64,000 nucleotides of DNA from Nitrospira sp. (GTDB lineage Bacteria; Nitrospirota; Nitrospiria; Nitrospirales; Nitrospiraceae): positions 1 to 64,000 of the forward strand of contig JARFXO010000002.1 of NCBI GenBank assembly GCA_029194665.1, written 5' to 3'. The number at the start of each line of letters is the position of its first letter. Within the stretch, counting starts at the first letter, position 1. The notes under the pieces were generated by a model. It was not told the origin of the DNA. It saw nothing but the letters and a program-made list of their open reading frames with translations, and searched no databases. Both the position numbers and the translations under genes were made by a program. Of this stretch, positions 8,774 to 60,148 are shown one piece after another.

Positions 8774-8829
8774 TGGCCTCCTCCTTTTGCGAAACAACCC
8801 ACCCGTTGAGTACCAAAACCTGCATTGAG

Positions 8830-8852
8830 CGCCCCGCCAGGAAGGGCGGGGC
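8830..8852. repeat. Strong GC hairpin
   Basis: GCCCCGCC, a 5-base loop, then GGGCGGGGC form a near-perfect stem between the IS3 remnant and the SGNH gene. No T-run follows on the plus strand, so a terminator role is doubtful. Confidence 0.4.
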
Positions 8853-8853
8853 T

Positions 8854-9488: not shown

Positions 9489-9528
9489 GTTCTTTGCTTT
9501 TCGCTCTTTTCCTGATGATAAATTCTAG

Positions 9529-10977: not shown

Positions 10978-11113
10978 CTAGCCGGCTGCGGAGAACTAAG
11001 GTTGTATGAGACAAATGTGCTCCAGCCCCACTCACACGAAACTGCTCACCTTCTCGATCAAACAGTGTCCCGGTAGACTTCCGATACTCCTCAATGATGG
11101 TCTGCTACTTTCA

Positions 11114-11887: not shown

Positions 11888-11941
11888 CGATGTGTCTCCT
11901 GTACGGTTTGAGAATGCGAGACTGCTGGTATTCTTCCCATT

Positions 11942-13446: not shown

Positions 13447-13450
13447 GGGA

Positions 13451-14722
13451 TTACCGAATGCCTCTCGCCGCCACATCTCGGGCTGAAGGATCCGGTAACA
13501 ATCCGGCTGCCATCAGTCGATCCATCAAGCCAAACGGAGGCTCCTTGCGGAGTCCGGCTGTCGTCGATAGGACACGATACCGGAGCCGTGCATTGCCGTC
13601 CAGCGTGCGGAAGACGCGGTCCCGGAGAAAGGCGATGATCGGATTCGCCGTGTTCCAGAACAGCACCTGTTCATCAGCCAACTGTTGCAGCATCGTGACC
13701 TGAGGCCGTCGCGAACCTTCGTATCTCTTGAGCCTTGCAGCGGAGAAGTCGTTCGCCGCCAGACATTCAGGCAAGAGATCGGCCAGCGTCATGGCATCCA
13801 CCATCGCCTGCATGCGCCCCTGCGACGCATGAGGATTCATCGCATGCGCCGCATCCCCGATCAGCACTGCGCCGTCGACCACCCAGGTTGGAGTCCGAAC
13901 ACGCCCGGTCGGCATGAAGGCGGTTTGATTCCAGTCGGTCAATGTACGGAAGATGGCCCCATCGGCAGGATCGATCGCGATCCAGGATTCTTGTAGTGCA
14001 GCGATGCCTTGCTCTTTCACACGATCATATGAACCGGCCTTGATCATGTAAAAAACATAGACCTTGTTTCCGGCAGCGGGAAACATCCCGAGGATCGTTC
14101 GCTTACCGACAAAATACTTCGCTTCGTCCATGGGAAGCGCTGCTTCCAACATGGCGATCAAATAGCCCTGTGGGTAGAGATGAAGATCGGCCGGGATCTG
14201 CAAGGCCTCTCGAACCTTTGAAAATGCTCCATCTGCTCCAATGACTACCTTCGCCTTCACGGTCACGCTGTCTTCACCTTGCTTCGCGGTCAACCCAATG
14301 ACTCGCCCCTTCTCTCGAAGCAGACCGGTGAATGACGATCGATACCGCAATGAGGCGGAGGATTCACGTTCGATCGCGTTCAGAATGGCATGGTGCGCCA
14401 CATTCGGCAGTGTGACCACGGCTTGATTGTACGGTGGAGGGAGTTCGCTGTAGTCCACCGTGCACAGCCGCTCGCCACCGACCAGGCAAAAATGAAACTT
14501 GTGCACCGTCCTGGTGGACTCGACCGGCAATCGACCCAGAAGCCCCAAGCGATCAAGCACGTGTTGTCCGTTCGGCTGTAGGATCTCGCCGCGCAATCCC
14601 TGCGGTGGTCCTGGTGCCTGCTCGAAGACGATGGTCTTGATCCCCTTCTGGGCCAATGCAAGTGCCAGCACGGCCCCTCCTCCACCCGCTCCCACTATGG
14701 CGATGTCGGTTTCTTCGACCAT
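13451..14722 (-). CDS. FAD-dependent monooxygenase (UbiH/PHBH-like)
   Basis: The product is 423 residues. FAD motifs are complete: the N-terminal GAGGGGAVLALALAQKGI Rossmann loop followed by VFE, the middle VIGADGAFSKVR (DG motif), and GDAAHAMNPHASQGRMQAMV, the second FAD-binding motif. This is the class A flavin monooxygenase fold (PF01494), acting with NAD(P)H and O2 on an aromatic or polyprenyl substrate. An N-terminal VFEQAPGPPQGLRGEI fits related quinone-modifying enzymes. The specific substrate is unknown. It lies in a tight minus-strand run, 56 bp after the PLD gene. Confidence 0.8.
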   Translation of the reverse strand: MVEETDIAIVGAGGGGAVLALALAQKGIKTIVFEQAPGPPQGLRGEILQPNGQHVLDRLGLLGRLPVESTRTVHKFHFCLVGGERLCTVDYSELPPPYNQAVVTLPNVAHHAILNAIERESSASLRYRSSFTGLLREKGRVIGLTAKQGEDSVTVKAKVVIGADGAFSKVREALQIPADLHLYPQGYLIAMLEAALPMDEAKYFVGKRTILGMFPAAGNKVYVFYMIKAGSYDRVKEQGIAALQESWIAIDPADGAIFRTLTDWNQTAFMPTGRVRTPTWVVDGAVLIGDAAHAMNPHASQGRMQAMVDAMTLADLLPECLAANDFSAARLKRYEGSRRPQVTMLQQLADEQVLFWNTANPIIAFLRDRVFRTLDGNARLRYRVLSTTAGLRKEPPFGLMDRLMAAGLLPDPSARDVAARGIR

Positions 14723-46253: not shown

Positions 46254-47114
46254 TCACGCCGCCGACTGCTGACGGGCCCACTGCTGGGCAAATGCCGCGG
46301 GCGAGCAATTCCCGAGTCGAGAATGTCGCCGCTGCCGGTTAGAGAATAGCTCGATATACTCCGTGATCTCGCGCCGAGCCTGCTCACGGGTTTCGTAGCG
46401 ACGATGATGCACCAGTTCATTCTTCAGCGTCCCCCAGAAACTCTCCATCGGGGCGTTGTCATAGCAGTTCCCCTTCCGACTCATGGACGGGATCAGGCCG
46501 AACTGCCGCAGCTGATCCTGATAGTCCTGGGCACAATACTGCGAGCCACGATCGGAGTGGTGGATCAGTCCCGGGCGCGGACGTTTCGCCCCCAGTGCCA
46601 TGACCAGCGCCTGCCTTACCAAGTCCGTCGTCATGCGGCCCTCCATCGCATGCCCGACTACCTCACAGGTATACAGATCTTTGATCCCCGCCACATACAA
46701 CCACCCTTCTGCCGTGGGGATATATGTGATATCGGTGACCCAGGTCTCGTTCGGGCGCGTGGCGACAAACGTTTGGGCCAAGACATTCTCCGCCACCGGC
46801 AGCGCGTGCTTCGAATCCGTCGTGGTCGTGAACCGGCGCACCTGCTTGCAACGGAGGCTCAGTTTCTTGCGTAGCCGCTTGATGCGCCCAATCCCGGCGG
46901 GGAAGCCGTCCGCACGCAATTCCGCCTGGAGGCGCTCCGGGCCATACGTGTGCCGGGTGCGCACATGGGCAGCTTGGATCGCCACTTCTAGCCGCACATT
47001 CTCCTGGGCGCGTTTCGACGGCCGCCGATGCTGCCAGGCATAGTAGCCGCTTCGGGATACCTCCAGCACTCGACACAACAGACTCAGCGGGTAGTGGAGA
47101 CGCAGCGTCCTCAT
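46254..47114 (-). CDS. IS3 transposase OrfB (DDE integrase core)
   Basis: The product is 286 residues. The HTH_21 region (VLEVSRSGYYAWQHRRPSKR) is followed by the integrase core with catalytic residues in NETWVTDITYIPT (Asp), GLIHHSDRGSQYCAQDYQDQ (Asp) and CYDNAPMESFWGTLKNELVH (Glu). It is normally made as an OrfAB fusion by -1 frameshifting from orfA; the orfB frame is open back to the slippery site at about 47160. It appears intact and may still be active. Confidence 0.9.
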   Translation of the reverse strand: MRTLRLHYPLSLLCRVLEVSRSGYYAWQHRRPSKRAQENVRLEVAIQAAHVRTRHTYGPERLQAELRADGFPAGIGRIKRLRKKLSLRCKQVRRFTTTTDSKHALPVAENVLAQTFVATRPNETWVTDITYIPTAEGWLYVAGIKDLYTCEVVGHAMEGRMTTDLVRQALVMALGAKRPRPGLIHHSDRGSQYCAQDYQDQLRQFGLIPSMSRKGNCYDNAPMESFWGTLKNELVHHRRYETREQARREITEYIELFSNRQRRHSRLGNCSPAAFAQQWARQQSAA

Positions 47115-47428
47115 GAGCGCGTACCGGGCAGCTGCGCCTTCGCAACGTACGCGGTGGCTTTTTTTAGGATGTCCCGCTCCATCCGCGCTTCAGCGAGATC
47201 GCGCTTGAGCCGAGACACCTCGGCCTCCAGCTCCGTCACGGGCCGTCGGCTCTCGCCCAGCGTCGCGAGCTGGCCCTGCCGAGCTCGACACACCCAGCCC
47301 TCGAGCGTCCTGCCCGACATGCTCAGGCGTCTGGCGGCCTCCGGAATCGTCAACGGCTGTTCCAGGACCAGCCGCACTGCCTGCTCCCTGAATTCCTTTG
47401 TATACTGCTGTCGCGGCACCTGTTCCAT
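47111..47428 (-). CDS. IS3 OrfA with programmed -1 frameshift site
   Basis: The product is 105 residues. It has an N-terminal helix-turn-helix (LTIPEAARRLSMSGRTLEGW) and a leucine-zipper-like helix (LEAEVSRLKRDLAEARMERD). The run CTAAAAAAAG within the codons for ILKKA near 47160 is a slippery sequence that moves ribosomes into the orfB frame. OrfA alone binds the ends and limits transposition. Confidence 0.85.
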   Translation of the reverse strand: MEQVPRQQYTKEFREQAVRLVLEQPLTIPEAARRLSMSGRTLEGWVCRARQGQLATLGESRRPVTELEAEVSRLKRDLAEARMERDILKKATAYVAKAQLPGTRS

Positions 47429-47627
47429 CTCACACCTCCAGACCTCTCATTGTAGGTTGAAGGCGTCCACTTTTCCGAGCCTAGCACAGTGCCGAAAGCC
47501 CCCGCGGCAGACTGCTGGCGGACCCACGGTATCAAGGGTACCCGCCGTTGACCGGGCCACGGTGGCCATCCGAATAGTGTTGCGCTGATCTATTCATACT
47601 GAACTGACCAGCGACTACGCAGTTCTA

Positions 47628-48756
47628 GTGCTTAGTTGCATAAGTAATCGATAAGGCGTACCGTCTTGGGCAAGGAGGCCGACCATGCCCAAGTCGCCAC
47701 CCAGGTTGCATTGTTCCGAGCCAGACCGGAAGATGTTGGAGGAGTGGGCGCGGAGCCGCACCCAGGAAGCCCGCCTGGTGGAGCGAGCCAAGATCAACCT
47801 GCAATGCGTGCAAGGACACTCGGTCAGCGACATTGCGCGAAGTTTGCGCGTGCGCCCCAATACGGTGATCGATTGGCGGCGGCGGTTCGACCTCGAAGGA
47901 TTGCCCGGTCTGGCGGATCGTCCGCGCTCGGGTAAGCCGCGGCAGTATGGCGCGGACTTTCGCAAGCAGGTGCTGGCGGTGATGGAAGCACCCCCGCCGA
48001 AGGGACAAGCCGCCTGGGACGGTCCAGCAGTGGCCCGGCATCTCAAAACCTCCGTGCACGCGGTCTGGCGTGTGCTGCGCAAGGAAGGCGTCTGCCTAGG
48101 CCGGCAGCGGAGTTGGTGCGTGAGCACCGATCCGGAATTTTCCACCAAGGCCGCCGCTATCGTGGGGCTGTACTTGAATCCGCCGGGAAAGGCGCTGGTC
48201 ATATCCGTCGATGAGAAGCCCAGCATCCACGCGTTGGAGCGGGCGACCGGGTACGTGGAGACCGACAATGGCAAAATCGTCTGCGGGTTCAAGCGCACCT
48301 ACACGCGTCACGGGACGTTGAATCTGGTTGCTGCCCTGGAAGTCGCGACCGGTGCGATCCACACGCAACTCACTCGGCACAAGCGCCGCCTGGAGTTTCT
48401 GGACTTCATGGATCATCTGATGGCGGAGATGCCCGAGGGCAAAGACATTCATGTACTCCTGGACAATTACTGCATTCACAAACGGAATGATCCGTGGTTG
48501 GCCGCACACCCCAATGTCGTGTTCCATTTCACACCGACGTCAGCCAGTTGGCTCAACCAGGTTGAAATCTGGGTTGGGATCTTTGCGCGAAAGGCGCTCA
48601 GGGGGGCCAGCTTTCGGAACATCGAGGAATTGCGTCAGGCCATCGAAGCGTTTGTGGCCGCCTATGGACCAACCGCCAAACCGTTTGTGTGGCGCACGAG
48701 AGAAGTCCAAGGCTCTCAACTCAGAAACACTATCGTGAACTTACGCAATTAAGCAC
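47628..48756 (+). mobile_element. IS630-family element with TA target duplication
   Basis: GTGCTTAGTTGCATAAGT at the left and ACTTACGCAATTAAGCAC at the right are inverted repeats with two mismatches, flanked by TA (47626-47627 and 48757-48758). Length is 1129 bp. The transposase is full length, so the copy may be active. Confidence 0.9.
47685..48752 (+). CDS. IS630-family transposase
   Basis: The product is 355 residues with AAGGAGG just before the ATG. Two helix-turn-helix motifs are at the N-terminus (HSVSDIARSLRVRPNTVIDW and GPAVARHLKTSVHAVWRVLR). The DDE domain carries LVISVDEKPSIHAL (Asp), IHVLLDNYCIHKRN (Asp) and TSASWLNQVEIWVGIF (Glu), the pattern of the IS630/Tc1 group. No damage is seen. 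Confidence 0.9.
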   Translation: MPKSPPRLHCSEPDRKMLEEWARSRTQEARLVERAKINLQCVQGHSVSDIARSLRVRPNTVIDWRRRFDLEGLPGLADRPRSGKPRQYGADFRKQVLAVMEAPPPKGQAAWDGPAVARHLKTSVHAVWRVLRKEGVCLGRQRSWCVSTDPEFSTKAAAIVGLYLNPPGKALVISVDEKPSIHALERATGYVETDNGKIVCGFKRTYTRHGTLNLVAALEVATGAIHTQLTRHKRRLEFLDFMDHLMAEMPEGKDIHVLLDNYCIHKRNDPWLAAHPNVVFHFTPTSASWLNQVEIWVGIFARKALRGASFRNIEELRQAIEAFVAAYGPTAKPFVWRTREVQGSQLRNTIVNLRN

Positions 48757-48759
48757 TAG

Positions 48760-49613
48760 GGCGTGTCATCAATTAAGCCATGTCATTGAAGCAGCGAGAT
48801 AGATGGCACCGAGGAAATTGGCGGCGCGTTTGTCGTAGCGGGTGGCGATGGCGCGGAATTGCTTGAGTCTGGCGAAGAAGTTCTCAATCAGATGCCGGGC
48901 TCGGTAGAGGTCTTGATCGTATTCGCGGGGGGTGGTTCTGTTGGCTTTGGGGGGAATGACCACGACCTTGCCCGCTCGTTGCAGCGGCTGGATCACCCGT
49001 TCATCGGCATCAAAGGCCTTATCGGCAATGATGGTATCCGCGTCAATGCCGGGTAGCAAGACATCGGCGCCCTCCAGGTCATGCGCCTGCCCTGGGGTGA
49101 GATGAAACCCCGTTGGGTTACCCAACGCATCACAGGTGGCGTGGATTTTGGTGGTCAGGCCACCCTTGCTGCGTCCGATGGCTTCCTGCGCGTGGTGCCC
49201 CCTTTTGCACCAGCGCTGTGCTGGTGGGCACGAACGATGGTGGAATCGATCATCGCGTATTCGTTGTCAGGATCGTCAGCAAGACGTTCAAACACCCGCT
49301 TCCAGACGCCGCGTCGACTCCAGCGCGTATGGCGTGTGTGGATCACTCGGAAATCTCCGAACCGCTCCGGCAGATCCCGCCACGGGATCCCCGCGCGATA
49401 CCGGTACAACACCGCTTCCACAAACAGCCGGTTGTCCTTCGCCGTCACGCCCACCGTCTCTTCACGACCAGGCAGCAGATGCTCGATCTTCTCCCATTGG
49501 TCATCACGCAATCCATACCGTCTCACCATCCGCAGACCCCTCCTTTGGTCTGGGACGGAGTAAATCACAACACGATGGCTCTGTGAATCGAGAAAATTAA
49601 TTGATGACACGCC
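48760..49613 (-). mobile_element. IS5-family (IS427-type) element with CTAG duplication
   Basis: GGCGTGTCATCAATTAA at the left and TTAATTGATGACACGCC at the right are exact inverted repeats, flanked by CTAG (48756-48759 and 49614-49617). Length is 854 bp. It inserted immediately beside the IS630 copy and, on its other side, at the last codon of the RiPP precursor gene. Confidence 0.85.
48769..49529 (-). CDS. IS5-family transposase in two frames
   Basis: The first frame (49155-49529) has YGLRDDQWEKIEHLLPGREE, AGIPWRDLPERFGDF and the first catalytic Asp in EYAMIDSTIVRAHQH. The second frame (48769 to about 49200) has IIADKAFDADERVIQPLQ (Asp) and LIENFFARLKQFRAIATRYD (Glu region). The frames meet at an AAAAGGGGGC run (49197-49206), a plausible programmed frameshift site as in other IS427-group elements, so the gene may be functional. 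Confidence 0.8.
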
Positions 49614-49772
49614 CTAGCTGCAGAACGGGAGATGGGGATGCCTTTGGCAGATGCGATTAATAATACGCTGCTCTCTTCTACCGCCCCTACCAGAAAAGGC
49701 CGCGGTGATATCAAGCAACAGGCCATGCTTCGTAAGGGCTGGCTGGACATACACTTCTTTGACAGGTCTCAT
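49614..49772 (-). CDS. Lasso-type RiPP precursor peptide
   Basis: The product is 52 residues; GGAGGG lies 6 bp before the ATG at 49772. The N-terminal half MRPVKEVYVQPALTKHGLLL fits the lasso-leader pattern YxxPxLxxxG (Y8, P11, L13, G17) recognised by RRE/PqqD-like proteins, and T23 follows six residues after the Gly. The C-terminal half, from AAFSGRGGRREQRIINR to RICQRHPHLPFCS, would contain the core: it is basic, has one Glu (E34) as a possible ring acceptor and two Cys. The core start is ambiguous, since no Thr lies two residues before a Gly. The stop falls in the CTAG where IS5 inserted, but removing IS5 and IS630 in silico restores the same TAG. The modifying genes are at 51435-56838 on the same strand. 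Confidence 0.8.
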   Translation of the reverse strand: MRPVKEVYVQPALTKHGLLLDITAAFSGRGGRREQRIINRICQRHPHLPFCS

Positions 49773-49900
49773 TTTTACCCTCCATCCAAGTATGAGAAAC
49801 AGAGTCTTCTATAGATCATTACTATCGTTTATTGCCATACCTCTTAAGTGGGGAGTGTACTCTTGATCTTGCTCGAATATCAATCTCAGGTACGGAAAAG

Positions 49901-51290
49901 TGTCAAGCCCAAATAGAAATGTCCGGTTTATGTTCCGGCCGCTGCCGGGTGTGGTCCTCGTTCCTGCCGCCACCGCTTGCGCCATGGATGGTTCGGTTTG
50001 GGCGTGACCGGGCGGTGGGAGCGGGGCAGGGATTTGGCCTCCGCCACCGTCACCGGTCGCGCCGCGATCGCGTGGAAGCCGAGCGCCCGCCCCTGGTGCG
50101 TGAGCCGCAGGGTGCCATCGAGCCGGTGTTCCACCAGGACGTGGGCAGCCCGGACCGTGTCGTGCATTTGATAGAGCTGCCCCTGATGCACAATGGTGAA
50201 GTCCTTCCGTAGGCAGCGGGTGGTCTTGAGGCACAAGCTCCCGTCCAAGGTCCGATTCGGTGGCGTCGGTCGATGCAGATCCGCCGCCTGAGCCGGCGGC
50301 ACGGCAAACCGCCGGTTGTAGACCGGCAGATAGTGCTCCACAAAGCGGTTCGTGTCCTCCACGGTCGCGATCCCGGCCAAACGCAGCTCTTTGACCAGTC
50401 GATCTTGAAACGTCTGAAACAGCCGCTCCATTCGCCCCTTGGCTTGCGGGGAGTGGGCCGCGATCAGCTCCACGCCCAACTCGCGCAACGCTCGGCCAAA
50501 CTGACTCGCCGGTTCCACGCCGGCCAGTTGCTCCTTCACCGTCGGCTCGGCGGGCGACTGATACGTCGTATGCTTGTCCGCATAGAGTGCCAGTGGCAAC
50601 CCATAGCGCCGCACGTAGCGTTGAAAGCTGTCCATCGCCGGGATCGTACCCTCGTACTCATAGAACCGGGCAAACACGCGACTGCTCGCATCATCGATGT
50701 ACGCCATCAGGACACACTGCGGGCCGCGCTCCTCCAACCAATCATGATGGGAGCCATCCAGCTGCACCAACTCCCCGACATGCGTCTTCCGCGCCCGCCA
50801 GGCCCGGTGTGGGCGCTTCCGCCGCCGGAAATGCTCGATCCCGCGCGCCCGTAGCCACAGCCGTAGGGTCTCGTCGCTGAGCGTGATCCCGTGGTGCTCG
50901 GCCAGTTTCTCCGCCGCCAACGTCGGCCCAAAATCGCCATACCGCTCCTCGTACAGCTGCAATGCCTTCGCCTTTCTCTGCTCGGGAATCCGCCGGTTCG
51001 ACGGTTTGCCCCGTACCCGATGCACCAGCCCCTCGTCCCCCTCCTGCTCGACCCGCCGCAGGAGGCGCCGCACCTGCCGCGCCGTCAGGCCCAACAACGC
51101 CCCCGCGTTGACCTGCGTGATCTGTTTCCCCACCACCTGGCGGATCACATGGACCCGCCGCAGTTCCTTCCCACTCATGAGTACCCTGTCCTCTCCGACC
51201 ATCCCGCCCTCCTTGTGAGAGCGGCCAGTCTAGCAACGAAGAGGACATTGCTATCTTGGCCAAAGCGGACATTATCATGTTGGGATTACA
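49901..51290 (-). mobile_element. ISNCY-like (IS1202-type) element with 17-bp target duplication
   Basis: Ends TGTCAAGCCCAAATAG and, on the complement at the right, TGTAATCCCAACATGA share CCCAA and AATGTCCG as inverted repeats. TCTCAGGTACGGAAAAG is repeated directly at 49884-49900 and 51291-51307. The element splits the RiPP precursor from the exporter gene. Confidence 0.85.
49928..51202 (-). CDS. ISNCY-family DDE transposase
   Basis: The product is 424 residues with AAGGAGGG just before the ATG. Helix-turn-helix: VNAGALLGLTARQVRRLLRR. Catalytic core: GELVQLDGSHHDWLEERG (Asp), LPLALYADKHTTYQSP (Asp) and HSPQAKGRMERLFQTFQDRL (Glu). The C-terminal region (CLRKDFTIVHQGQLYQMHDT) is usual for this family. 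The reading frame is complete, so it may be active. Confidence 0.85.
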   Translation of the reverse strand: MVGEDRVLMSGKELRRVHVIRQVVGKQITQVNAGALLGLTARQVRRLLRRVEQEGDEGLVHRVRGKPSNRRIPEQRKAKALQLYEERYGDFGPTLAAEKLAEHHGITLSDETLRLWLRARGIEHFRRRKRPHRAWRARKTHVGELVQLDGSHHDWLEERGPQCVLMAYIDDASSRVFARFYEYEGTIPAMDSFQRYVRRYGLPLALYADKHTTYQSPAEPTVKEQLAGVEPASQFGRALRELGVELIAAHSPQAKGRMERLFQTFQDRLVKELRLAGIATVEDTNRFVEHYLPVYNRRFAVPPAQAADLHRPTPPNRTLDGSLCLKTTRCLRKDFTIVHQGQLYQMHDTVRAAHVLVEHRLDGTLRLTHQGRALGFHAIAARPVTVAEAKSLPRSHRPVTPKPNHPWRKRWRQERGPHPAAAGT

Positions 51291-51434
51291 TCTCAGGTAC
51301 GGAAAAGTATCCGAAAACCAGCCCTCCCAGAGACGCCGTAACCACTTGCAAAATAAATCGAATCAACCACAAACCGAAATCAATGCAACCATCGCGTTAG
51401 CGACGAAGGCTCTGCCGTACATAGAGCCGCTCGA

Positions 51435-53246
51435 CTATTTGTAGTACTGTGATTGGATCCGGAACAGCTCGGCATAGATGCCATGGCAACGCATCAGCTC
51501 CTCATGTGAGCCACTTTCCAGAATCCGCCCTTCATCCACCACACAAATTCGATCAACCATTTTCACGGTGGACAAGCGATGACTGATCAAAATCGCGATG
51601 CGACCTTTGGCCAACTCATGAAACCGGCTAAACAGCTCCGCCTCAGCCTTGGCATCCATCGCGCTGGTCGGCTCATCAAGAATGAGGATCTGCGAGTCGC
51701 GGAGGAAGGCTCGCGCGAGCGCCACCTTTTGCCATTCACCGATGCTCAGTTCATGCCCGCCGTCGAACAACTTGCCGAGCACTGACTCGTACCCCTTGGG
51801 CAAGCGCTCAATGGCCTTATGAACACCAGCCTGTTTGGCCGCCTGGACGACGGCGAAAAGATCGACATCGGAAGATCTCACCCCCAAAGCGATGTTCTCT
51901 TTTACCGAAAACTGAAACTTCATGAAGTCCTGGAAGATCCCGCTGACAGCGCCTCGGACATCGGCAATCGGGTAGTCTCGAAGATCTTCACCATCGATCG
52001 TAATGCGACCGCTCGATGGATCATAGAGTCGACATAGCATCTTCACCAGTGTCGTCTTCCCTGCCCCGTTCGCTCCGACGAATGCGACATGCTCACCTGG
52101 GCTGATCGTAAAGGTGACGTCCCGGATTGCCACACGTTCTTCATGTGAGTATTGGAATGACACATGATCGAACACAATTCCCTGCGTGATTGGTTGGGGA
52201 AACCGCTTGGGATATGCCGAATTCTGCAAACGAGACTGAATGCCCAAGAACTCATTTAATGTGGTCAGGAACAGATTGCTCTCGTAGAGATTCGACACAC
52301 TCCATCCCAAACTCTCCAGGAATCCGGAGGCTCGCTGCACCGCCTGGAAAAACATGACGAGGTCGCCCACCGTAAGCAGCCCCTGAAATGTTCGGAACGC
52401 CACAAAACTGTAGACCCCGAACACTCCAACTACGCCGATGACCTGGGCGGCAAGTCCCGCGAGGGCCCAGCGACGCTCTAACGCAATCCGTTCCTGGCGC
52501 AGCACCGATCGTGCCTCCTGGAACCACTGCCGCAGCCGAGGACCGAGGTCGAACAGCCGGATTTCTTTCGCTGCAGTGGCTTGTGTCAGCAGCATATTGA
52601 CATACCAGGCCTTCCGTTCAAGCGGCGTCCGTTCGCAGTCCCAGACAAACAGACTGTGAGATTGTTGCAGTCGGACGAAGAAGTAGGGGAAAGCTGCCAG
52701 CAGCAAGACCGGAATCACCGCCCAATGCAGCCACCAGAGTATGGCTGCCATGGCAAGCAATGAAATGGCGTCTTGTCCAAATTGAAGCAAGGCGTTGAGA
52801 ATCCCCGTCGGTTGATAAGGCGCTTCTTGCTGTGCGCGATGGAGCGTATCGTGATACCGCGCATCCTCATAGTACTCCAGATCGACCTCGATGGACTTTG
52901 CCTGAAGGAGCGCATGCATGTGGTCGGTGACGACTTGCGCATGAATCGTTGAAATCAGAGAGGCCATGCTGGTGAGCATGGCATTGGCCATCGCAACACC
53001 CGCCAGCCCCATAAGAATCATGATCATCCGATTCAACGATTCCTCGGCAGACGGAATCTTACTCCCTTCGGTCACGACATCGATCAACAGTTTCGTGAGA
53101 TACAGCACCGCCAGTGGGAGGAGGCCTTGGACTACCCGTACGACGATACTGCCGATAGCCAGACTCGGACTGCTCTGCCAAACGAACAGGAGGGCATGGC
53201 GAAGCGTCAGGAGAAAGGGGCGTATGCGATCCAGAATAAGATTCAT
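51435..53246 (-). CDS. ABC exporter of the RiPP cluster
   Basis: The product is 603 residues from the ATG at 53246. The N-terminal half has six membrane helices (IGSIVVRVVQGLLPLAVLYL, AISLLAMAAILWWLHWAVIP, LAAQVIGVVGVFGVYSFVAF). The ATPase has Walker A FVGANGAGKTTLVK, signature LSIGEWQKVALARAF, Walker B QILILDEPTSAMDAKAE and H-loop LISHRLSTV. In lasso clusters a protein of this type (D protein) exports the mature peptide and can give immunity. It lies 30 bp after the B2 gene; the precursor gene was about 255 bp downstream before the ISNCY-like element inserted. Confidence 0.85.
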   Translation of the reverse strand: MNLILDRIRPFLLTLRHALLFVWQSSPSLAIGSIVVRVVQGLLPLAVLYLTKLLIDVVTEGSKIPSAEESLNRMIMILMGLAGVAMANAMLTSMASLISTIHAQVVTDHMHALLQAKSIEVDLEYYEDARYHDTLHRAQQEAPYQPTGILNALLQFGQDAISLLAMAAILWWLHWAVIPVLLLAAFPYFFVRLQQSHSLFVWDCERTPLERKAWYVNMLLTQATAAKEIRLFDLGPRLRQWFQEARSVLRQERIALERRWALAGLAAQVIGVVGVFGVYSFVAFRTFQGLLTVGDLVMFFQAVQRASGFLESLGWSVSNLYESNLFLTTLNEFLGIQSRLQNSAYPKRFPQPITQGIVFDHVSFQYSHEERVAIRDVTFTISPGEHVAFVGANGAGKTTLVKMLCRLYDPSSGRITIDGEDLRDYPIADVRGAVSGIFQDFMKFQFSVKENIALGVRSSDVDLFAVVQAAKQAGVHKAIERLPKGYESVLGKLFDGGHELSIGEWQKVALARAFLRDSQILILDEPTSAMDAKAEAELFSRFHELAKGRIAILISHRLSTVKMVDRICVVDEGRILESGSHEELMRCHGIYAELFRIQSQYYK

Positions 53247-53276
53247 GGTCAACCAGAGCAAGTGATGAAGATCACA

Positions 53277-53750
53277 TCAGGACACTGCCGTCCTCTTGCT
53301 CTGACACCGAATGGTAGAGTCCCGCTCTCCACCGCCTACATGATCCGGAGGATACGAAAAGGTGATCGTGTAACGTTGCCAATGCTGGCCTGTTTCGTAA
53401 AAGGGCCGGAGATTTAACATGAGCCACGCATGGCCATCGAGATGTGAACCGTCCTTCCTCACACCACATTGAAAGAGAACTGAATACCCCAATCGCCTGG
53501 CGAACCAATAGAGAGCCAAGGACCGTGGGAAGCAATTCCCTTTTCTGCTATAGGGAAACAACTGAAGCCAGCGATCTACGTAATAGACCAGATCCTCCAT
53601 CTCGGCCGCAGCAGGCCTCCACGTCATCGAACGAGGAGTCAATCGATCTAGCACCAGCGGCAAACTCTTGACCCGCAACAAGAAACGAACCCACAACACT
53701 ACCAAGCCTGTGCGAAACACGATCTCATATTTTTTCACGAGTCGAATCAT
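53277..53750 (-). CDS. Lasso-type B2 leader peptidase (transglutaminase-like)
   Basis: The product is 157 residues. The cysteine-protease core of the B2 family is clear: RKGNCFPRSLALYWFARRLG with catalytic Cys, then GVRKDGSHLDGHAWLMLN with catalytic His, and YTITFSYP near the end. B2 proteins, helped by the RRE protein (here the PqqD-like protein at 56497), cleave the leader from the precursor. A helical N-terminus (FRTGLVVLWVRFLLRVKSLP) is typical for this family. It is the strongest family marker of the cluster. Confidence 0.85.
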   Translation of the reverse strand: MIRLVKKYEIVFRTGLVVLWVRFLLRVKSLPLVLDRLTPRSMTWRPAAAEMEDLVYYVDRWLQLFPYSRKGNCFPRSLALYWFARRLGYSVLFQCGVRKDGSHLDGHAWLMLNLRPFYETGQHWQRYTITFSYPPDHVGGGERDSTIRCQSKRTAVS

Positions 53751-53836: not shown

Positions 53837-55057
53837 CTAACCATCATGCTCAACCCAGCGATTGATAGCTCCCCAAATCTTGAAGGGAAACACACTCCTT
53901 ATAGTTCGGTGAAGAGGGAGAACGATCCGAGCGAGACGTGGAAGGGAAGTGCTCCAGGGAAACCAGGGTGGAGGAGTGGTGACCAGAGGATGGTGATCAC
54001 GACACAACATCAGACCAAACCGCCAGCGGTCCCACCAGGAATCTTTTAAGGAGAAGTAGAGTGCAACGACCTGGCCCTCATCCACTCCGGCATAATAATC
54101 TGCCACCAGAGTGGATGGCATGCGGTCGGACAACATCCGCACGGCTGAATCGGCCGAGAGCCGTGCGAGAACCGCCTTAGGCAGGGGGGCATCCAACAAC
54201 AGGTGCGCGAGTGACAACCCCATACACACCAGACGTCGGCAACGCCACATCGATGAAATCGAGAAAATCCAATCCCAGTCCAGTCGGTTGTGCGCTCGAA
54301 GTAACTGGGCGACATCACACACCCATTTGAGCGCTTCCCACCCATGCTTCGACCCATGGACACACAGAATTATCAACAGAGCTTCCGGCGCCAGTCCTGG
54401 TACCGTCTTGTTCGCAAGCGATACAGCTGTTCGACGCTGCCAGAACTCTGACCGATCCAACCGAAACATAAAGTATTGCTGTGCCATTACCCACTGGAGA
54501 TCAACGCGAAAGTGCGTCCGCTGTTTGATGAACACATGGTGAGGCCCTCCCCTGTGGTCCGCCTCGCCAGAATCAGATGAAGGACCTTCCCTTTCATAAC
54601 CCAATGTCAGCAACATAGCCTGCGCTTCTGTAATGGCGCCTTCTGGAACAAGCAGATCCGTGTCGCTAAACTCTCGAAGGGTCAGATCACCATAGACCGA
54701 AGCTGCCAGAGTCGCCCCTTTGATAGGTATAACCGGCACTCCATGCGCCTCCAGCGCTTCGCACAAGACGACGAGCTCCTGCGCAAGCATCCGGTTGCGC
54801 AATGCACCGGCTTGCGTCCTCTGACGTAGCTCGGTCAACGATTCGGCGGGCACGAGGTCAGAACAAAGCTCGGATAGATTTCGATGCAACAGAGGACCGA
54901 CGCCATGATACCAAGCCAGATCAAGGACAACCGACCAGTCAAGCGGCCCTTGCACTCTTTGCCTGATACGTGTCTTGAGCTCGTCTGTCACGACCGTACG
55001 GGCGCACCAGACCAGGAGCTCGGATTCCTGCCGTAATGAGAACTGCCTGTTCGTCAT
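53837..55057 (-). CDS. NTP_transf_5-type nucleotidyltransferase
   Basis: The product is 406 residues. The central domain has VPVIPIKGATLAASVYGDLT and REFSDTDLLVPEGAITEAQA, the GxxL...DxDLLV pattern of the uncharacterised nucleotidyltransferase family PF14907, with both acidic residues kept. An N-terminal helical part and a C-terminal helical part (APEALLIILCVHGSKHGWEA) surround it. Members are frequent in lasso-like and capsule clusters and may add a nucleotide to the peptide or to a protein. Its ATG overlaps the kinase stop by 4 bp (55054-55057). Confidence 0.8.
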   Translation of the reverse strand: MTNRQFSLRQESELLVWCARTVVTDELKTRIRQRVQGPLDWSVVLDLAWYHGVGPLLHRNLSELCSDLVPAESLTELRQRTQAGALRNRMLAQELVVLCEALEAHGVPVIPIKGATLAASVYGDLTLREFSDTDLLVPEGAITEAQAMLLTLGYEREGPSSDSGEADHRGGPHHVFIKQRTHFRVDLQWVMAQQYFMFRLDRSEFWQRRTAVSLANKTVPGLAPEALLIILCVHGSKHGWEALKWVCDVAQLLRAHNRLDWDWIFSISSMWRCRRLVCMGLSLAHLLLDAPLPKAVLARLSADSAVRMLSDRMPSTLVADYYAGVDEGQVVALYFSLKDSWWDRWRFGLMLCRDHHPLVTTPPPWFPWSTSLPRLARIVLPLHRTIRSVFPFKIWGAINRWVEHDG

Positions 55058-56079
55058 GATCCTTTTTGCACAAGCAGCGGCGTGATCAGCTTCGGCAAGT
55101 CGAGGATATCCTGGCCGAAATGCAACCGGTAGCAGTCCACCTGCTGAACCAACTTCGCTAAGACTTTAAACTCCCGCCTGGCGACCTCCGGATCATAAAC
55201 CAATAGCGCCTGTGGAAGGAGAAGTTCCATGGCTCGACTCTTAGGAAGAAGCTCGAGGTGACTGTGCGGGGCATCGACCATATGGGGGAACAGCACCACG
55301 GCAGGCTGACAGCAGTCGCCCAACGAGTTCGGATACAGATTCTCGGCATGAAAAGACCGCTTTGGCGAACCGGACTGAAGGACATGATCAGGAGCATCGA
55401 GGAGTTCCTGGAAAAAAGCGATCGTCGTTTCGGTCACGCTAATCTCGATGGGAAACGGGAGTACTTCCACATGCGTCCCGGCATCTCGAATCCACGGATG
55501 ATCATCCGACAGATACCGGTAGCCCGAGCGGAGCAGAGAGATAGAACACGTCGTCTTACCGCGGCCGCTATTCCCTGGGATCAAGACCCCATGGCCATGT
55601 TTCTCCACTGCAGTCGCATGGATCGTATAGAGTCCCCGGTATCGTAGGAGTTCGCTCAAGGCGCGGTGAAACAGATATTCGATCAAGTTCGTATGCATGG
55701 TTTCAGGCTTGATCAGATAACCGTCAGTCCGGCCCTGCACACCATCCATCACCAGCACCCCGACGTCAGGAAAGTCTGCAATCAAGCGCCCCTCGTCCTG
55801 AATGACCTCGTAGGGCAACCCGGTCTTCCACCGATCCTCATCCCCTGCACCCGTTCCGGCGGACAATTGACGCGCAGATGAAGACAGTGCCAGCAGAATC
55901 TCCGATCGAGCCTGCACTGCGTGGAAATACAAGCTGAGCGCGGCTGACTCCTCGATCGAGTCCTGCCGGAAATGCCTCAGTAATTCATTCACTGGTGCAG
56001 CCAACTGAGGCGACTCCGTAACATATCTCATTGGCGTGCCGTAGAGGGAAAACAGATACGTTGTCCTAGGCGATTCCAT
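55054..56079 (-). CDS. HPr-kinase-like peptide kinase of the RiPP cluster
   Basis: The product is 341 residues from the ATG at 56079; a GTG at 56103 is an alternative. Residues about 130-330 form the HPrK C-terminal kinase fold: Walker A HGVLIPGNSGRGKTTCSISL, RYLSDDHPWI with the catalytic Asp pair, and the later strand VLPFPIEISVT. In some lasso clusters (paeninodin type) such kinases phosphorylate the C-terminal Ser of the precursor; here the precursor indeed ends in Ser (HLPFCS). That match is suggestive only. Translation is probably coupled to a 17-codon frame that overlaps its start. Confidence 0.8.
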   Translation of the reverse strand: MESPRTTYLFSLYGTPMRYVTESPQLAAPVNELLRHFRQDSIEESAALSLYFHAVQARSEILLALSSSARQLSAGTGAGDEDRWKTGLPYEVIQDEGRLIADFPDVGVLVMDGVQGRTDGYLIKPETMHTNLIEYLFHRALSELLRYRGLYTIHATAVEKHGHGVLIPGNSGRGKTTCSISLLRSGYRYLSDDHPWIRDAGTHVEVLPFPIEISVTETTIAFFQELLDAPDHVLQSGSPKRSFHAENLYPNSLGDCCQPAVVLFPHMVDAPHSHLELLPKSRAMELLLPQALLVYDPEVARREFKVLAKLVQQVDCYRLHFGQDILDLPKLITPLLVQKGS

Positions 56080-56119
56080 CCCGGTCCTCGTCTGCAGCCT
56101 CACCCTCGTCGGTATTCAT
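56066..56119 (-). CDS. 17-codon leader-like frame overlapping the kinase start
   Basis: A strong AGGAGGGG site precedes ATG at 56119, encoding MNTDEGEAADEDRDGIA and a TAG at 56066-56068. The kinase ATG at 56077-56079 lies inside its last codons in another frame, so ribosomes ending here could restart at the kinase gene. It may be a translational-coupling leader and not a functional peptide. Confidence 0.4.
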   Translation of the reverse strand: MNTDEGEAADEDRDGIA

Positions 56120-56297
56120 TACCCCTCCTAACACAGGCAGAGAAGGCAGGCTGATCCTGAGGAGCCCTACTGCTCGTCCTCGCCCTGGTCAGCTCGTTGC
56201 GTCGAAACCAGGAACGACATGAGGGGATATCCGGCAGCAACTCGTGTCTAACGAGCGCTGACTGGACACGCCCCTCATTCCTTTCATTCATATTTAT

Positions 56298-56496: not shown

Positions 56497-56838
56497 TTAC
56501 TTCCTTCCTTGTTGAAGAAGCCCCTCCTGAACTAGTTGATCGATCAGGGCAATAAGATCGTACAGCGCCTGCTCGGATGCAACCTCAAAGCGGTTGCACA
56601 GGCTCGCATGAATGTCGCTGATGGTGTTGTGACCGGTACAGTGCTCCCAAATGACACTGCCCAATCGGTTCAATGTGTAGTAGCGTCCGCTGCTGAGATT
56701 CAACAGCACCGTCTCGTCCGCCATACTTGCGGTTTGTACATCGGGGCTGGGCCAGAGGATAGTTCGATCCAGCATCGTGCGATCGATGGCAGGCTCTGAA
56801 ACGGTTTGATAGGGCATCTCGTGCAATGGGTCCGACAT
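56497..56838 (-). CDS. PqqD/RRE-domain protein (B1-like)
   Basis: The product is 113 residues from the ATG at 56838, with GAGGGA upstream. The PqqD-type winged-helix recognition element reads ETVLLNLSSGRYYTLNRLGS followed by VIWEHCTGHNTISDIHASLC, with a helical C-terminus (LYDLIALIDQLVQEGLLQQ). Such domains bind RiPP leaders, here presumably the YxxPxLxxxG region of the 52-residue precursor, and deliver it to B2. It is the most upstream surviving gene of the cluster; an IS5 copy begins 38 bp before it and may have removed its promoter. Confidence 0.85.
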   Translation of the reverse strand: MSDPLHEMPYQTVSEPAIDRTMLDRTILWPSPDVQTASMADETVLLNLSSGRYYTLNRLGSVIWEHCTGHNTISDIHASLCNRFEVASEQALYDLIALIDQLVQEGLLQQGRK

Positions 56839-56880
56839 GGGTCTGTCCCTCCTCGATTCATCTTTCGGCAACATGACTAG

Positions 56881-57723
56881 GCTCTGTTGACGTTGGGGCT
56901 TTCCCCCCCGTCCGCGATCTGTGATTCACTGTTCAAAGCCCAGGGGAGAGAGTTTTAAGTGGCGAGACGCGAGCTTCGAAACGATCAATGAGATCAAAGC
57001 AAGGACTTGCTGCCTGAGAAAAAGAGCGATCGGGACGGACAGGTAAGGACAACCGGCTGTTCGTGAATGCCGTGCTGTCGATTGGGCGGACAGGGGAGCA
57101 CTGGCGGGAGATTCCGGAGACGTTCAGTGAATGGAACAGTGTGTTCCAGCGATACAACCGCTGGTCAAAGGCAGGCGTGTGGGAACGAGTGTTCCATGCC
57201 TTGTCCGGCGACCAGGACTTTGAATACGTAATGATCGACTCCACCATCGTCCGCGCACCAGCACTCCGCTGGTGCAACAGGGGGACTCAAGAGACGGAAG
57301 TTCATCGCCGCTCGAAAGGCGGCCTGACCACGAAACTACATGCTGCCGTCGACGGCCCGGACAATCCCCTGCGCTTCATTCTGACGCCGGGACAGGCATC
57401 GGACTATACGCAGGTCGAGCCGTTGCCGGCAGGCTTTCCCTTGCAGAACATCATCGCAGACAAGGGATACGACAGTAAAAAGATCGTCGACACTGTTGAA
57501 CTGACCGGCGCGAAAGCCGTCATCCCGCCGCGCTCCTGCGTCAAAGACCCGCGCGAACCCGACTTCGCCTTGTATGCCGAACGCGACCGTATCGAGTGCT
57601 TCTTCAGTAAGCTCAAGCACTACCGCGTCATCGCCACCCGTTACGCCAAACGCGCCCGCAACTTCGCAAGCCTCATCTATCTTGCGGCTTCCATGCTCTG
57701 GATAAAATGAATGTCAACGGAAC
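56881..57723 (+). mobile_element. IS5-family element, 843 bp, CTAG duplication
   Basis: GCTCTGTTGACGTT at the left and AATGTCAACGGAAC at the right are inverted repeats with a few mismatches, flanked by CTAG (56877-56880 and 57724-57727). It lies directly upstream of the PqqD-like gene of the RiPP cluster. Confidence 0.8.
57063..57710 (+). CDS. IS5-family transposase, N-terminally broken
   Basis: The open part is 215 residues from a GTG inside KDNRLFVNAVLSIGRTG, a point where related proteins already have about 40 residues; the preceding frame ends in a stop, so an upstream frameshift removed the proper N-terminus. Catalytic residues are kept: FEYVMIDSTIVRAPAL (Asp), NIIADKGYDSKKIVD (Asp), RIECFFSKLKHYRVIATRYA (Glu). 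Probably inactive. Confidence 0.75.
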   Translation: MNAVLSIGRTGEHWREIPETFSEWNSVFQRYNRWSKAGVWERVFHALSGDQDFEYVMIDSTIVRAPALRWCNRGTQETEVHRRSKGGLTTKLHAAVDGPDNPLRFILTPGQASDYTQVEPLPAGFPLQNIIADKGYDSKKIVDTVELTGAKAVIPPRSCVKDPREPDFALYAERDRIECFFSKLKHYRVIATRYAKRARNFASLIYLAASMLWIK

Positions 57724-57730
57724 CTAGAAC

Positions 57731-58387
57731 CTATCTCAAAATTGCTTCAGGAGCATGGTGATGGACGCGAGCTGCACAAAACCCAGAAAGTTGGTGGCGT
57801 AGTATTCCCAACGAATCAGGAGCCGCCGTTTCCATTGGAGCCACGCAAAAACCGTTCGACAAGCCAGCGCTACGCAAGTGGCAGCCATCTTGCGTCTTGA
57901 GCTTCCGCGTGGACCGGTGGGGCGCAAGCATGTTGACGCTATCCTGTGTGAGGTCGTCATCGAGCCCATCACTGTCGTAGGCCCGATCCCCAATGGGATA
58001 CTCGGGTTTGGCCTCCAGCATGTAGCAGTTGAAACTGAGTTGAACCAACTTGACCTCATGATGATTGGCCGCATGCGTGCTCACCGAGAGCGGGAGCCCA
58101 TGCCGATCCACAAACGCGAGGATTTTGACGCCTTTGCCCCGGCGGGTTTTCCCGATGTCATCGCCTCCGCCCTTGGCCGAGGCAAACGTCGCATCGATGA
58201 AAGCCTCGCGCTCGTCAATCGCTCCTCCCTCCCGGAGCGTATTCGCCGGCTGTGTGAGAATCGCGCGCAACACCTCTCGTTCGCACCACTGTTGAAACCG
58301 ACGATGGACCGTCTTGTAGTTGGGACAGCACTGCGGGAGCATGTGCCACTGTGCGCCGGTATTCAGAATCCACAAGACACCCTCCAA
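57731..58387 (-). pseudogene. IS5-family transposase, frameshifted, 5' end displaced by IS1380
   Basis: The frame holds LEGVLWILNTGAQWHMLPQC (N-terminal domain), EAFIDATFASAKGGGDDIGK (first Asp), PIGDRAYDSDGLDDDL (second Asp), then shifts near 57870; the shifted frame gives FAWLQWKRRLLIRWEYYATN, the C-terminal end. The missing N-terminal codons lie beyond the IS1380 insertion at 60153-60240, where they are also disrupted. Confidence 0.8.
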
Positions 58388-58445
58388 GATGGCTCGCGCC
58401 GATACCGGCTTGCGACCGGGACCACCTTCCAGGATGTGTTCCTAG

Positions 58446-60148
58446 CCCGGATAATTCACGACACGTGACACAAAAAAGCCATCGAGGCTCCGAACTGTGC
58501 TATAGGAGCGGTGTTCAGGCGCTTCTACACACCGTGGAGAGGAGACCCGATGGCGACAGACTGTATAGCTCAAGTCACGTTTGAATTCCATGACAAACTG
58601 AAGCCGGTGGTGGCCCAGTTTGACCAGAGCCACGCCAGCACGGATGGCGGAGCCGTGTTGCTCAAGGCGGTGGATGACCGGCTCCACATGACCGACCAAC
58701 TGGCCGCCTATCTGGTCGACCGCCGGGATCCCGACAAGATTCGGCACTCGGTGCGGGATCTGCTGCGGCAACGGATCTTCGGCCTGGCTTGTGGCTACGA
58801 GGACGCGAACGACGCGGGCCGGCTGGCGAACGATCCGCGGCACAAACTCGCCGTGGGGCGGGATCCGGTCACCGGCTCGGCCCTGGCCTCGCAGCCGACG
58901 CGCTCGCGGTTTGAGAACGCCGTGAGCCCCTGGACGTTGGCCCGGATGGGCCGGACCCTGGCGACGACGGTGATTGCCCACCACCGAGCGCGGTTGAAGG
59001 GACGGGTCCAGCGCATCACCATTGACCTCGACCCGACTGACAATCCCACCCATGGGCAACAAGCGTTCACGTTCTTCAACGGGCATTACGACACCTGGTG
59101 CTATCTGCCGCTGGTCGCCACGCTGACCTTCAACGACGAAGCCGAGCAGTATCTGGTGGCCATTGTGCTTCGGCCCGGCAACAGTCCAGCGACGCGAGGC
59201 GCCCGTGGTCTGCTGCGCACACTGCTGCGGCAGTTGCGGCACGCATTCCCCGGCGCGGCGCTGCGGGTGCGTGTCGATGGCGGCTTCGCCGGACACGCAT
59301 GGCTCGACTGTTTGGAGACGCAGCGGGTCGAGTATGTGGTGGGGCTGGCGAGTAATGCGCGGCTGGTGCGGCGCGCCGGACGGCTCTTGGGTGAGGCCTA
59401 TGGCTTGTCCAAATACAGTGGCCGCACGGAGCACGTCTACGGGGAGACTGGCTACGCGGCTCGGAGTTGGGCAAACCGACGGCGGGTGATCATCAAGGCG
59501 GAGGTCGTCCGGGTGCCCGGACGGGATCCCACATGCAATCCCCGCTTCGTGGTGACCAATCTGCGTGAGACGCCCGCCACCGTGTATACGCTCTACCGTC
59601 AGCGCGGCGACATGGAGAATCGGCTCAAGGAGTTGCATGACGGGCTCGCGTTGGGCCGGACGAGTTGTTCGCAGTTCTGGGCCAATCAATTCCGGGTCCT
59701 GCTCACAGCCGCCGCGTACGTGTTGCTCCAGGAGTTGCGCCGTCAGGCGCACGGCACCGCCTGCGCCAGCGCGCAGGTGTCCACCTTGCGCGAACGACTG
59801 CTGAAGTTGGCGGTGTGGGTGGAACGATCCGTCCGTCGGCTGGTCCTGCATCTGCCCCAATTCTCGCCGTGGGGCGAGACCTGGCGCCGCGTCGCCATCG
59901 CGGTCGGCGCCACACCCGGCTAACGCGGAATCATGCCGTGTCACAACCTGCATCTTCACAGACGGAGAACGGCGGGGTCTGTCCGAACGCGCCCGATTCC
60001 AGAGTCGGTCCTTGATGGTCGTGTGGTGCCAGGCCTTCTCACCCTTCTGAAACTCCCAATCGCCCCCCTCCCGCACGGCCGGACTCCTCTCCTGATCCTT
60101 CCGATCGCCATGAACACGATCAGTGGCCACCGTCATGAATAATCCCGG
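58446..60148 (+). mobile_element. IS1380-family element with CTAG duplication
   Basis: CCCGGATAATTCACGAC at the left and GTCATGAATAATCCCGG at the right are inverted repeats with two mismatches, flanked by CTAG (58442-58445 and 60149-60152). Length is 1703 bp, normal for IS1380. It sits inside an IS5 copy. Confidence 0.9.
58550..59923 (+). CDS. IS1380-family transposase
   Basis: The product is 457 residues; GAGAGGAG precedes the ATG at 58550. Family marks: ASTDGGAVLLKAVDDRLHMT, LACGYEDANDAGRLANDP, and the DDE residues in RITIDLDPTDNPTHGQQ (Asp), LRVRVDGGFAGHAWLD (Asp) and YRQRGDMENRLKELHDGL (Glu). No stop or shift interrupts it. GC is high relative to neighbours. A long antisense open frame over it is a composition effect. 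Confidence 0.9.
   Translation: MATDCIAQVTFEFHDKLKPVVAQFDQSHASTDGGAVLLKAVDDRLHMTDQLAAYLVDRRDPDKIRHSVRDLLRQRIFGLACGYEDANDAGRLANDPRHKLAVGRDPVTGSALASQPTRSRFENAVSPWTLARMGRTLATTVIAHHRARLKGRVQRITIDLDPTDNPTHGQQAFTFFNGHYDTWCYLPLVATLTFNDEAEQYLVAIVLRPGNSPATRGARGLLRTLLRQLRHAFPGAALRVRVDGGFAGHAWLDCLETQRVEYVVGLASNARLVRRAGRLLGEAYGLSKYSGRTEHVYGETGYAARSWANRRRVIIKAEVVRVPGRDPTCNPRFVVTNLRETPATVYTLYRQRGDMENRLKELHDGLALGRTSCSQFWANQFRVLLTAAAYVLLQELRRQAHGTACASAQVSTLRERLLKLAVWVERSVRRLVLHLPQFSPWGETWRRVAIAVGATPG

Follow-up and report, generated by a model that had tools for sequence, protein, structure and literature searches.

A precursor family of cyclase-free Nitrospira gene clusters, predicted to yield a linear phosphopeptide with a lasso-type leader peptidase

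The precursor gene and its cluster

The window (the whole 64,000-nucleotide stretch of Nitrospira sp. DNA analysed) encodes a small precursor peptide, the enzymes of its cluster and nearby insertion sequences. The features are as follows.

49614..49772, minus strand: precursor peptide gene of 52 codons encoding MRPVKEVYVQPALTKHGLLLDITAAFSGRGGRREQRIINRICQRHPHLPFCS and a stop (open reading frame; homologues in loci L022 and L074; family profile)
49778..49783, minus strand: ribosome-binding site GGAGGG, 5 bases ahead of the ATG
49701..49772, minus strand: predicted leader, residues 1-24 (MRPVKEVYVQPALTKHGLLLDITA), as read from leader positions Y, P, H, L, D and T across the 192 unique relatives that were parsed
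49617..49700, minus strand: predicted core, residues 25-52 (AFSGRGGRREQRIINRICQRHPHLPFCS)
49692..49694, minus strand: codon of Ser27 (core Ser3), the putative phosphorylation site
51435..53261, minus strand: MsbA-like ABC exporter, 608 aa (PF00664, PF00005; best NCBIfam match MsbA, below cut-off)
53277..53750, minus strand: B2 leader peptidase, transglutaminase-like (NF033537 above cut-off, PF13471)
53837..55057, minus strand: NTP_transf_5 nucleotidyltransferase, 406 aa, DxD present (PF14907, 210 bits)
55054..56103, minus strand: HprK-like kinase, 349 aa, P-loop and SDD present
56497..56874, minus strand: PqqD-like RRE, 125 aa (PF05402; PDB 9x90, 5v1u, 6jx3, 9x8z)
56100..56291, minus strand: small frame EGRVQSALVRHELLPDIP, with Y, P and T lost (family profile 12.8 bits, E 0.078)
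49883..51311, minus strand: ISNCY-type insertion sequence in the ABC/precursor interval, transposase 49928-51202 (NF033594; ends approximate)
48756..49617, minus strand: IS4/5-type insertion sequence, transposase pieces 49155-49610 and 48769-49125

The initial annotation had described a 52-codon frame behind a GGAGGG ribosome site, with Y8, P11, L13, G17 and T23 in its product and two Cys and only one Glu in its core, on the same strand as the PqqD, kinase, NTP_transf_5, B2 and ABC genes; all of these features are present as described. A single-sequence search of the genome contigs and the protein database with the precursor found no relatives, and a PDB search with the precursor profile returned nothing at E up to 1. 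A 52-residue homologue lies after the ABC gene in L022, a Nitrospira MAG (55.8% identity, blastp E 1e-18), and another follows the ABC gene in L074. Comparison of the window precursor with L022 and L074 gives pN/pS values of 0.34 and 0.39 for the leader, and of 1.22 and 0.90 for the core. By these ratios the leader is guarded and the core is free to vary, and at the sequence level the 52-codon frame is confirmed as a true gene. Core Cys18 and Cys27 are common to all three precursors and may form a disulfide.

The YxxP leader motif is bound by RRE proteins, and the B2 proteases of lasso pathways leave Thr at position -2 of the cut leader. From this rule, the leader is predicted to be cut after A24, with Thr23 at -2. 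Positions are counted below from this Thr (T), and T+4 would be core residue 3, because the lasso B2 cuts one residue after Thr.

The cluster enzymes match known models to different degrees. The B2 protein has C73 and H107, with Glu119 twelve residues past the His, and no peptidase domain was matched in the ABC exporter. The HprK-like kinase matches HPr kinase chains in the PDB and scores below cut-off with both TIGR04352 (60.4 bits, cut-off 200) and PF07475 (30.1 bits, cut-off 33.3). An HprK-related kinase beside a PqqD-like protein also recalls the HPr-rel-A system and the SynChlorMet cassette; TIGR04353 of the former (18.8 bits, cut-off 35) and TIGR04248 and TIGR04249 of the latter likewise stay under their curated cut-offs. 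A 39-residue piece of the PqqD-like protein matches mostly designed repeat proteins, and Pfam gave no radical SAM match among the proteins of the window cluster. The conserved enzyme motifs are retained in the window RRE, kinase, NTP and B2 proteins.

Insertion sequences flank the precursor. The ISNCY-type element (~1.4 kb) has 22-bp direct repeats 1407 bases apart; subtracting 1407 bases from the ABC-precursor gap leaves 255, versus hand-computed gaps of 279 in L022 and 313 in L074 (the latter from an inner ATG), lengths being compared where the intergenic DNA is too diverged for alignment. The 21-bp inverted repeat of the IS4/5-type element (49597-49617) overlaps the precursor stop codon. 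At T-3, the window precursor alone carries Leu in place of Arg (1 of 192 parsed), and this unique Leu, together with the flanking insertion sequences, suggests that the window copy may perhaps be losing function. The frame at 56100-56291 occupies the slot where relatives carry precursors and looks like a decayed second precursor by its sequence; the next-best ORF outside the family reaches 6.9 bits in the same profile scan. Transposase genes of several types occur on either side of the cluster (46254-49610 and 57063-59923), and the protein of the IS4/5-type frame 49155-49610 is identical at L010:5819-6274.

A precursor family with a conserved leader and a variable core

The window NTP protein is strongly matched in 61 of 147 genomes examined in the bacterial family (best E no higher than 3.6e-86, against 2.5e-42 for the next genome, the cut being drawn by eye at this gap), and one region was fetched from each of the other cluster genomes (n = 60, seven under 10 kb). 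Placement in phylum and family is inferred from homologue names: the named homologues among the best matches of the NTP protein are Nitrospira and Nitrospiraceae, as are the L019, L020 and L022 records. At least one family precursor is present in 48 of the 60 regions, and homologues of PqqD, HprK, B2 and ABC are found in 50, 52, 47 and 24, respectively. The usual layout in relatives places one to three precursors between PqqD and HprK; the window, L022 and L074 instead have theirs behind the ABC gene. The proposal that the gene encodes the substrate of this cluster had turned on whether the small frame persists beside homologous clusters, and it is kept beside homologous PqqD/HprK/NTP/B2 genes in these 48 regions; by this sequence context, its role as the precursor of its own cluster is supported. 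Precursors were not found in 12 of the 60 regions (L082, L113, L114, L120-L123 and L125-L129), of which L082, L128 and L129 are under 10 kb, L127 has an HprK gene ending at the stretch edge, and L114 and L120 carry broken precursor remnants.

The family profile yields 94 matches at E<1e-3 from 51 sources (16,639 small ORFs), in which L021 and L058, which are one contig, are counted twice. Of 395 genomes in the phylum, a 46-member profile reaches 48, with 47 belonging to Nitrospira's family and one to another family of the same order, and the 46-member alignment finds 724 database proteins. The best 120 of these 724 gave no Pfam domain, and no Pfam, NCBIfam or PHROGs model was over its cut-off for the 46 members scanned; the lasso_cyano model NF033528 scores 16.8 bits on the window precursor (cut-off 33) and has no match on the other 45. 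No description of the Nitrospira precursor family was found in open-licence PMC papers. One genome of another family of the order (G367) holds five precursors on four contigs (L140-L143), with core enzymes beside only some of them. Orphan family precursors with a normal leader occur at L145:9472-9645 and L153:8785-8994, with PqqD, HprK, NTP and B2 unmatched within the fetched 18 kb.

A second cluster type has the leader Y.EPVL.AHELLRD[IV]TG and cores such as QKYREK... It adjoins the first cluster in L055, L078, L083-L085 and L087-L089 and stands alone in L021/L058, L059, L065 and L068; the L021 example includes genes for a RimK-like ATP-grasp protein and for a fatty acid hydroxylase. In a Bacteroidetes MAG (L023), a stretch of some 10 kb has a remote NTP_transf_5 match (31%) together with ABC, PqqD and HprK-like ones, which suggests that related clusters may exist outside the phylum.

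The family leader follows the consensus Y..P....H.LLRD[IV]T and leads into a hypervariable core. Among 192 unique parsed precursors (near-copies merged; best 120 of the 724 database proteins read), the leader Tyr is present in 191, and P, H, L, D and T are invariant, a count that is partly built in for P, H, D and T because the parsing pattern required Pro/Ser, His or a few others, Asp/Glu/Asn, and Thr/Ser at leader positions. The leader pattern stressed by the initial annotation holds in its Y, P and T, but not in G17, where 184 of the 192 have Glu; the neighbouring H16 is His in every one.

At T+1, 191 of 192 precursors have Ala or Gly. T+4 is Ser in 130 and Tyr in 38. Among the 24 that remain, Ser stands at T+5 in 23, so that Ser/Tyr at T+4 or Ser at T+5 is found in 191. 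Ser makes up 5.9% of the other core residues, versus 130/192 at T+4. All five G367 precursors, none of which was in the training alignment, show Ser or Tyr at T+4 when read by eye, and their leader Asp is replaced by Asn in three of the five. Since the profile was trained on Ser/Tyr members, such members are favoured among weak matches. Four unparsed sequences were left out of the 192 (L119:7208-7330, L087:3419-3559, L124:6789-6935 and L124:6965-7129); two fit the hydroxyl rule, and L124:6789-6935 and the degraded L087:3419-3559 do not. In both L124 sequences, Arg takes the place of the His common to all 192.

The enzymes of the relatives keep their motifs. In proteins above a length cut, and with L021 and L058 again counted twice, the P-loop and SDD residues of HprK are present in 53/53, D132 of the NTP protein in 63/63, the Cys and His of B2 in 51/52 each, and N69 and D106 of the RRE in 53/54.

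The lasso question

The window shares several features with lasso clusters, namely a YxxPxL leader with Thr, an RRE (PF05402) and a B2 protein (NF033537 above cut-off), and the initial annotation had taken the leader as lasso-type. The lasso reading does not hold up: neither the window cluster nor any of the 60 fetched regions, seven of which are under 10 kb, gave a lasso-type cyclase (Asn synthase-like), no ring acid is conserved, and the same bacterial family has lasso-type precursors of a different appearance. The single weak cyclase candidate, at L074:431-2329, was rejected, scoring 248 bits as a lasso cyclase versus 625 bits as an XrtA/PEP-CTERM amidotransferase. With Thr at -2, the acid falls at core position 10 in the window, 14-15 in L022, and 10 and 14 in L074, with none at 7-9. 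Across the family, 26 of 192 cores have no acid whatever, and 106 have Asp/Glu at positions 7-9, so a ring is conceivable by sequence in some subtypes.

Lasso-type loci of the same bacterial family served as controls. Sixteen cyclase loci were read (L009, L094-L106, L108, L109), yielding eight lasso-type precursors by motif, picked by eye, to which L107 adds a ninth. The lasso-type loci (L095, L099-L105, and L009 with L107) share with the window cluster PqqD, B2, remote HprK and NTP_transf_5 proteins and the Tyr-to-Thr distance. They differ in having a cyclase, in a precursor pattern Y..P....YG....LT, whose Y-G corresponds to H-E in the window family, and in carrying D8 or D9 in 9/9. The B2 proteins differ as well: Glu stands at His+12 in 51/52 of the cyclase-free set, versus Asp in 9, Glu in 1 and other residues in 5 of the lasso set (n=15).

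It might be argued that the window holds a lasso cluster stripped of its cyclase by insertion sequences, with the precursor as a leftover, a reading that would accommodate the insertion sequences on both sides of the precursor, the decayed second precursor at 56100-56291 and the Leu for Arg at T-3. However, L074 runs PqqD-HprK-NTP-B2-ABC-precursor with no cyclase and no insertion between ABC and precursor, and the other fetched regions are likewise without a lasso-type cyclase. In the B2 tree, moreover, cyclase-free and lasso-type proteins fall on opposite sides of one branch (98/97; some long branches), and the window RRE, kinase, NTP and B2 motifs are intact. Such an origin is quite unlikely.

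A ring could also be closed in trans. Contig C5 of the same genome carries a lasso-type cyclase (L009; NF033535, 491 bits against a cut-off of 525) accompanied by a PqqD and a B2 of its own, and no precursor was seen next to it. In the window precursor, E34 is 7 to 9 residues away from G28, S27 or F26; with F26 as the first core residue, the acceptor would be at position 9. This explanation was set aside because a fitting lasso-type precursor was found on contig C6 (L107:6470-6640, core GSPSGMFPD, D9), next to its own HprK-like and NTP genes. The unconserved acid position also counts against it, as does the distribution of the cyclase: no homologue was found in 57 of the 61 cluster genomes (E <=1e-60, at least 41% identity, at most eight candidates scored per genome, so that fragments may be missed). 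Homologues of at least 41% identity occur in 20 of the 147 genomes, four of which (G000, G071, G082 and G108) are among the 61. Ring closure in trans is very improbable. The lasso pathway of this genome looks split between L009:9269-11926 (PqqD, B2, cyclase) and L107:6470-10044 (precursor, HprK-like, NTP_transf_5), and G099 likewise has its cyclase (C3) and its weak NTP match (C2) on separate contigs.

A predicted linear phosphopeptide and its relation to LPPs

The absence of a lasso-closing enzyme from the gene cluster points to a linear product. In the favoured model, which we hold at a probability of about 75%, the precursor of this Nitrospira group gives a linear peptide, with the kinase acting on residue 3, B2 cutting the leader and the ABC protein exporting the product. 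The YxxP leader would dock on the PqqD-like RRE, a phosphate would be placed on core residue 3 (Ser27 here) by the HprK-like kinase, and the NTP_transf_5 enzyme would add to this phosphate. The lasso-type B2 protease would then cut one residue past Thr23, and the exporter would carry the linear peptide out. Read from the DNA itself are the gene, its conserved leader and hypervariable core, the hydroxyl at T+4/T+5, the enzyme motifs and the cyclase-free cluster.

The closest parallel in logic is the LPPs, linear polyphosphorylated peptides of Bacillota described in 2026 from the Paenibacillus alginolyticus lpp cluster (PMC13381572). Their genes encode an RRE, the HprK-like LppK, an NTP transferase, an MsbA-like exporter and an SpI-like peptidase, with no cyclase; the leader, YxxPxVLxHQxIxFETxxS, is cut after Thr, and phosphates are placed on core S3 (PMC13381572). 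In the same study, an S3Y variant is not phosphorylated, core substitutions from A1 to N5 leave cleavage unimpaired, the NTP transferase shows nothing detectable in B. subtilis, and LPPs are stated to be restricted to Bacillota (PMC13381572).

Compared with what is described there, the window likewise has a discrete RRE, an HprK-like kinase, an NTP transferase and an MsbA-like exporter, with no cyclase. The precursors share the 15-residue Tyr-to-Thr distance, His at the same leader position and a variable core and, provided that B2 cuts where it does in lasso pathways, a hydroxyl at the third core position. Aligned by eye, the two leaders have Y, P, V/L, H and T in register, with Q replaced by E, FET by DIT, and Ser at T+4 instead of T+3. 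The common hydroxyl at residue 3 is the main reason for placing the phosphate on Ser27, an assignment by analogy. The RRE residues N69 and D106, 37 apart, would match by spacing N33 and D70 of LppB, which hold the leader Pro and Tyr, respectively (PMC13381572). By phmmer, the window RRE is closer to the paeninodin RRE (29.7 bits) than to LppB (18.7 bits), a point against the LPP-like reading, so that any shared descent with the LPPs would be conjectural.

The window family differs from the LPPs in using a lasso-type B2 in place of the SpI-like peptidase, with Thr probably at -2 instead of -1. It lies outside Bacillota, with a Tyr3 subtype and Gly-rich, two-Cys cores, and an exporter homologue is present in only 24 of the 60 regions, which also counts against the favoured model. 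The SpI-like (SipW-type) model TIGR02228 had no match in the window's own genome and exceeded its cut-off in none of 43 cluster genomes; below cut-off it gave 24 matches in 22 of these genomes, lying away from the clusters.

Four of these sub-cut-off loci were read as candidates for an SpI-like peptidase encoded elsewhere and were rejected. L148 is a different cluster, L149 and L150 resemble it by eye, and in L151 no radical SAM, PqqD or PF00717 peptidase genes were seen. The L148 cluster (7934-14353, Nitrospira) comprises PqqD, three radical SAM proteins and a PF00717 peptidase by Pfam, with weak HprK- and NTP-like matches, and L150:6378-6623 encodes a Cys-rich small protein starting MNQKKPYTTPQL.

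The placement of the phosphate has a competitor, in which the product is a linear RiPP but the kinase and nucleotidyltransferase act on another target, for instance a sugar or a lipid, and the Ser is conserved only because the peptidase recognises it. That 38 of the 192 precursors have Tyr at T+4 instead of Ser speaks for this alternative and counts against the phosphate model, since S3Y is reported as unphosphorylated in the LPP work. On the other hand, the LPP kinase site described there is core S3, and the A1-N5 substitutions, which left cleavage unimpaired, argue against a role in peptidase recognition; a different target is unlikely. For the phosphopeptide model, the T+5 Ser of 23/192 precursors would be core residue 4, off the predicted residue 3, and the lack of a detectable effect of the NTP transferase in the LPP work also counts against it.

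A second comparison is with paeninodin and pseudomycoidin, whose clusters likewise combine an HprK-like kinase, a nucleotidyltransferase, B2 and an exporter beside an RRE-bound precursor, and in which the pseudomycoidin NTP enzyme adds hexoses to the phosphate (PMC8498205). Unlike these systems, the window family has neither a cyclase nor a conserved ring acid, and its leader has Tyr where that of paeninodin has Trp. A kinase acting on a C-terminal Ser as in paeninodin does not fit, because only 15 of 192 precursors end in Ser; S52 was rejected as a kinase target on this count and because L022 and L074 end in Asn.

On both the sequences and the LPP analogy, the class is likely a cyclase-free, LPP-like one with a lasso-type protease. 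Tentatively, and with considerable doubt, the linear phosphopeptide RiPPs of Nitrospirota may have arisen apart from the Bacillota LPPs, dropping the cyclase and keeping B2; the T-G-x-K-Y branch may have moved from Ser3 to Tyr3 with tyrosine-phosphorylating HprK-like enzymes, and multi-copy, rapidly evolving cores may provide a strain-specific repertoire in nitrifiers.

If the favoured model is right, LPP-like logic operates in a second phylum, using a lasso peptide's protease without a lasso. Because cyclase-free Nitrospira clusters carry both B2 and an RRE, this pairing is no mark of a lasso peptide by itself, and genome-mining rules that call lassos from B2 plus RRE would mislabel such clusters. 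The family found in Nitrospira is large (724 database proteins) and modelless in Pfam, NCBIfam and PHROGs for the 46 members scanned. Its conserved enzymes and freely varying cores would offer a direct test bed for the HprK-like RiPP kinase and NTP_transf_5, including the Ser3/Tyr3 swap.
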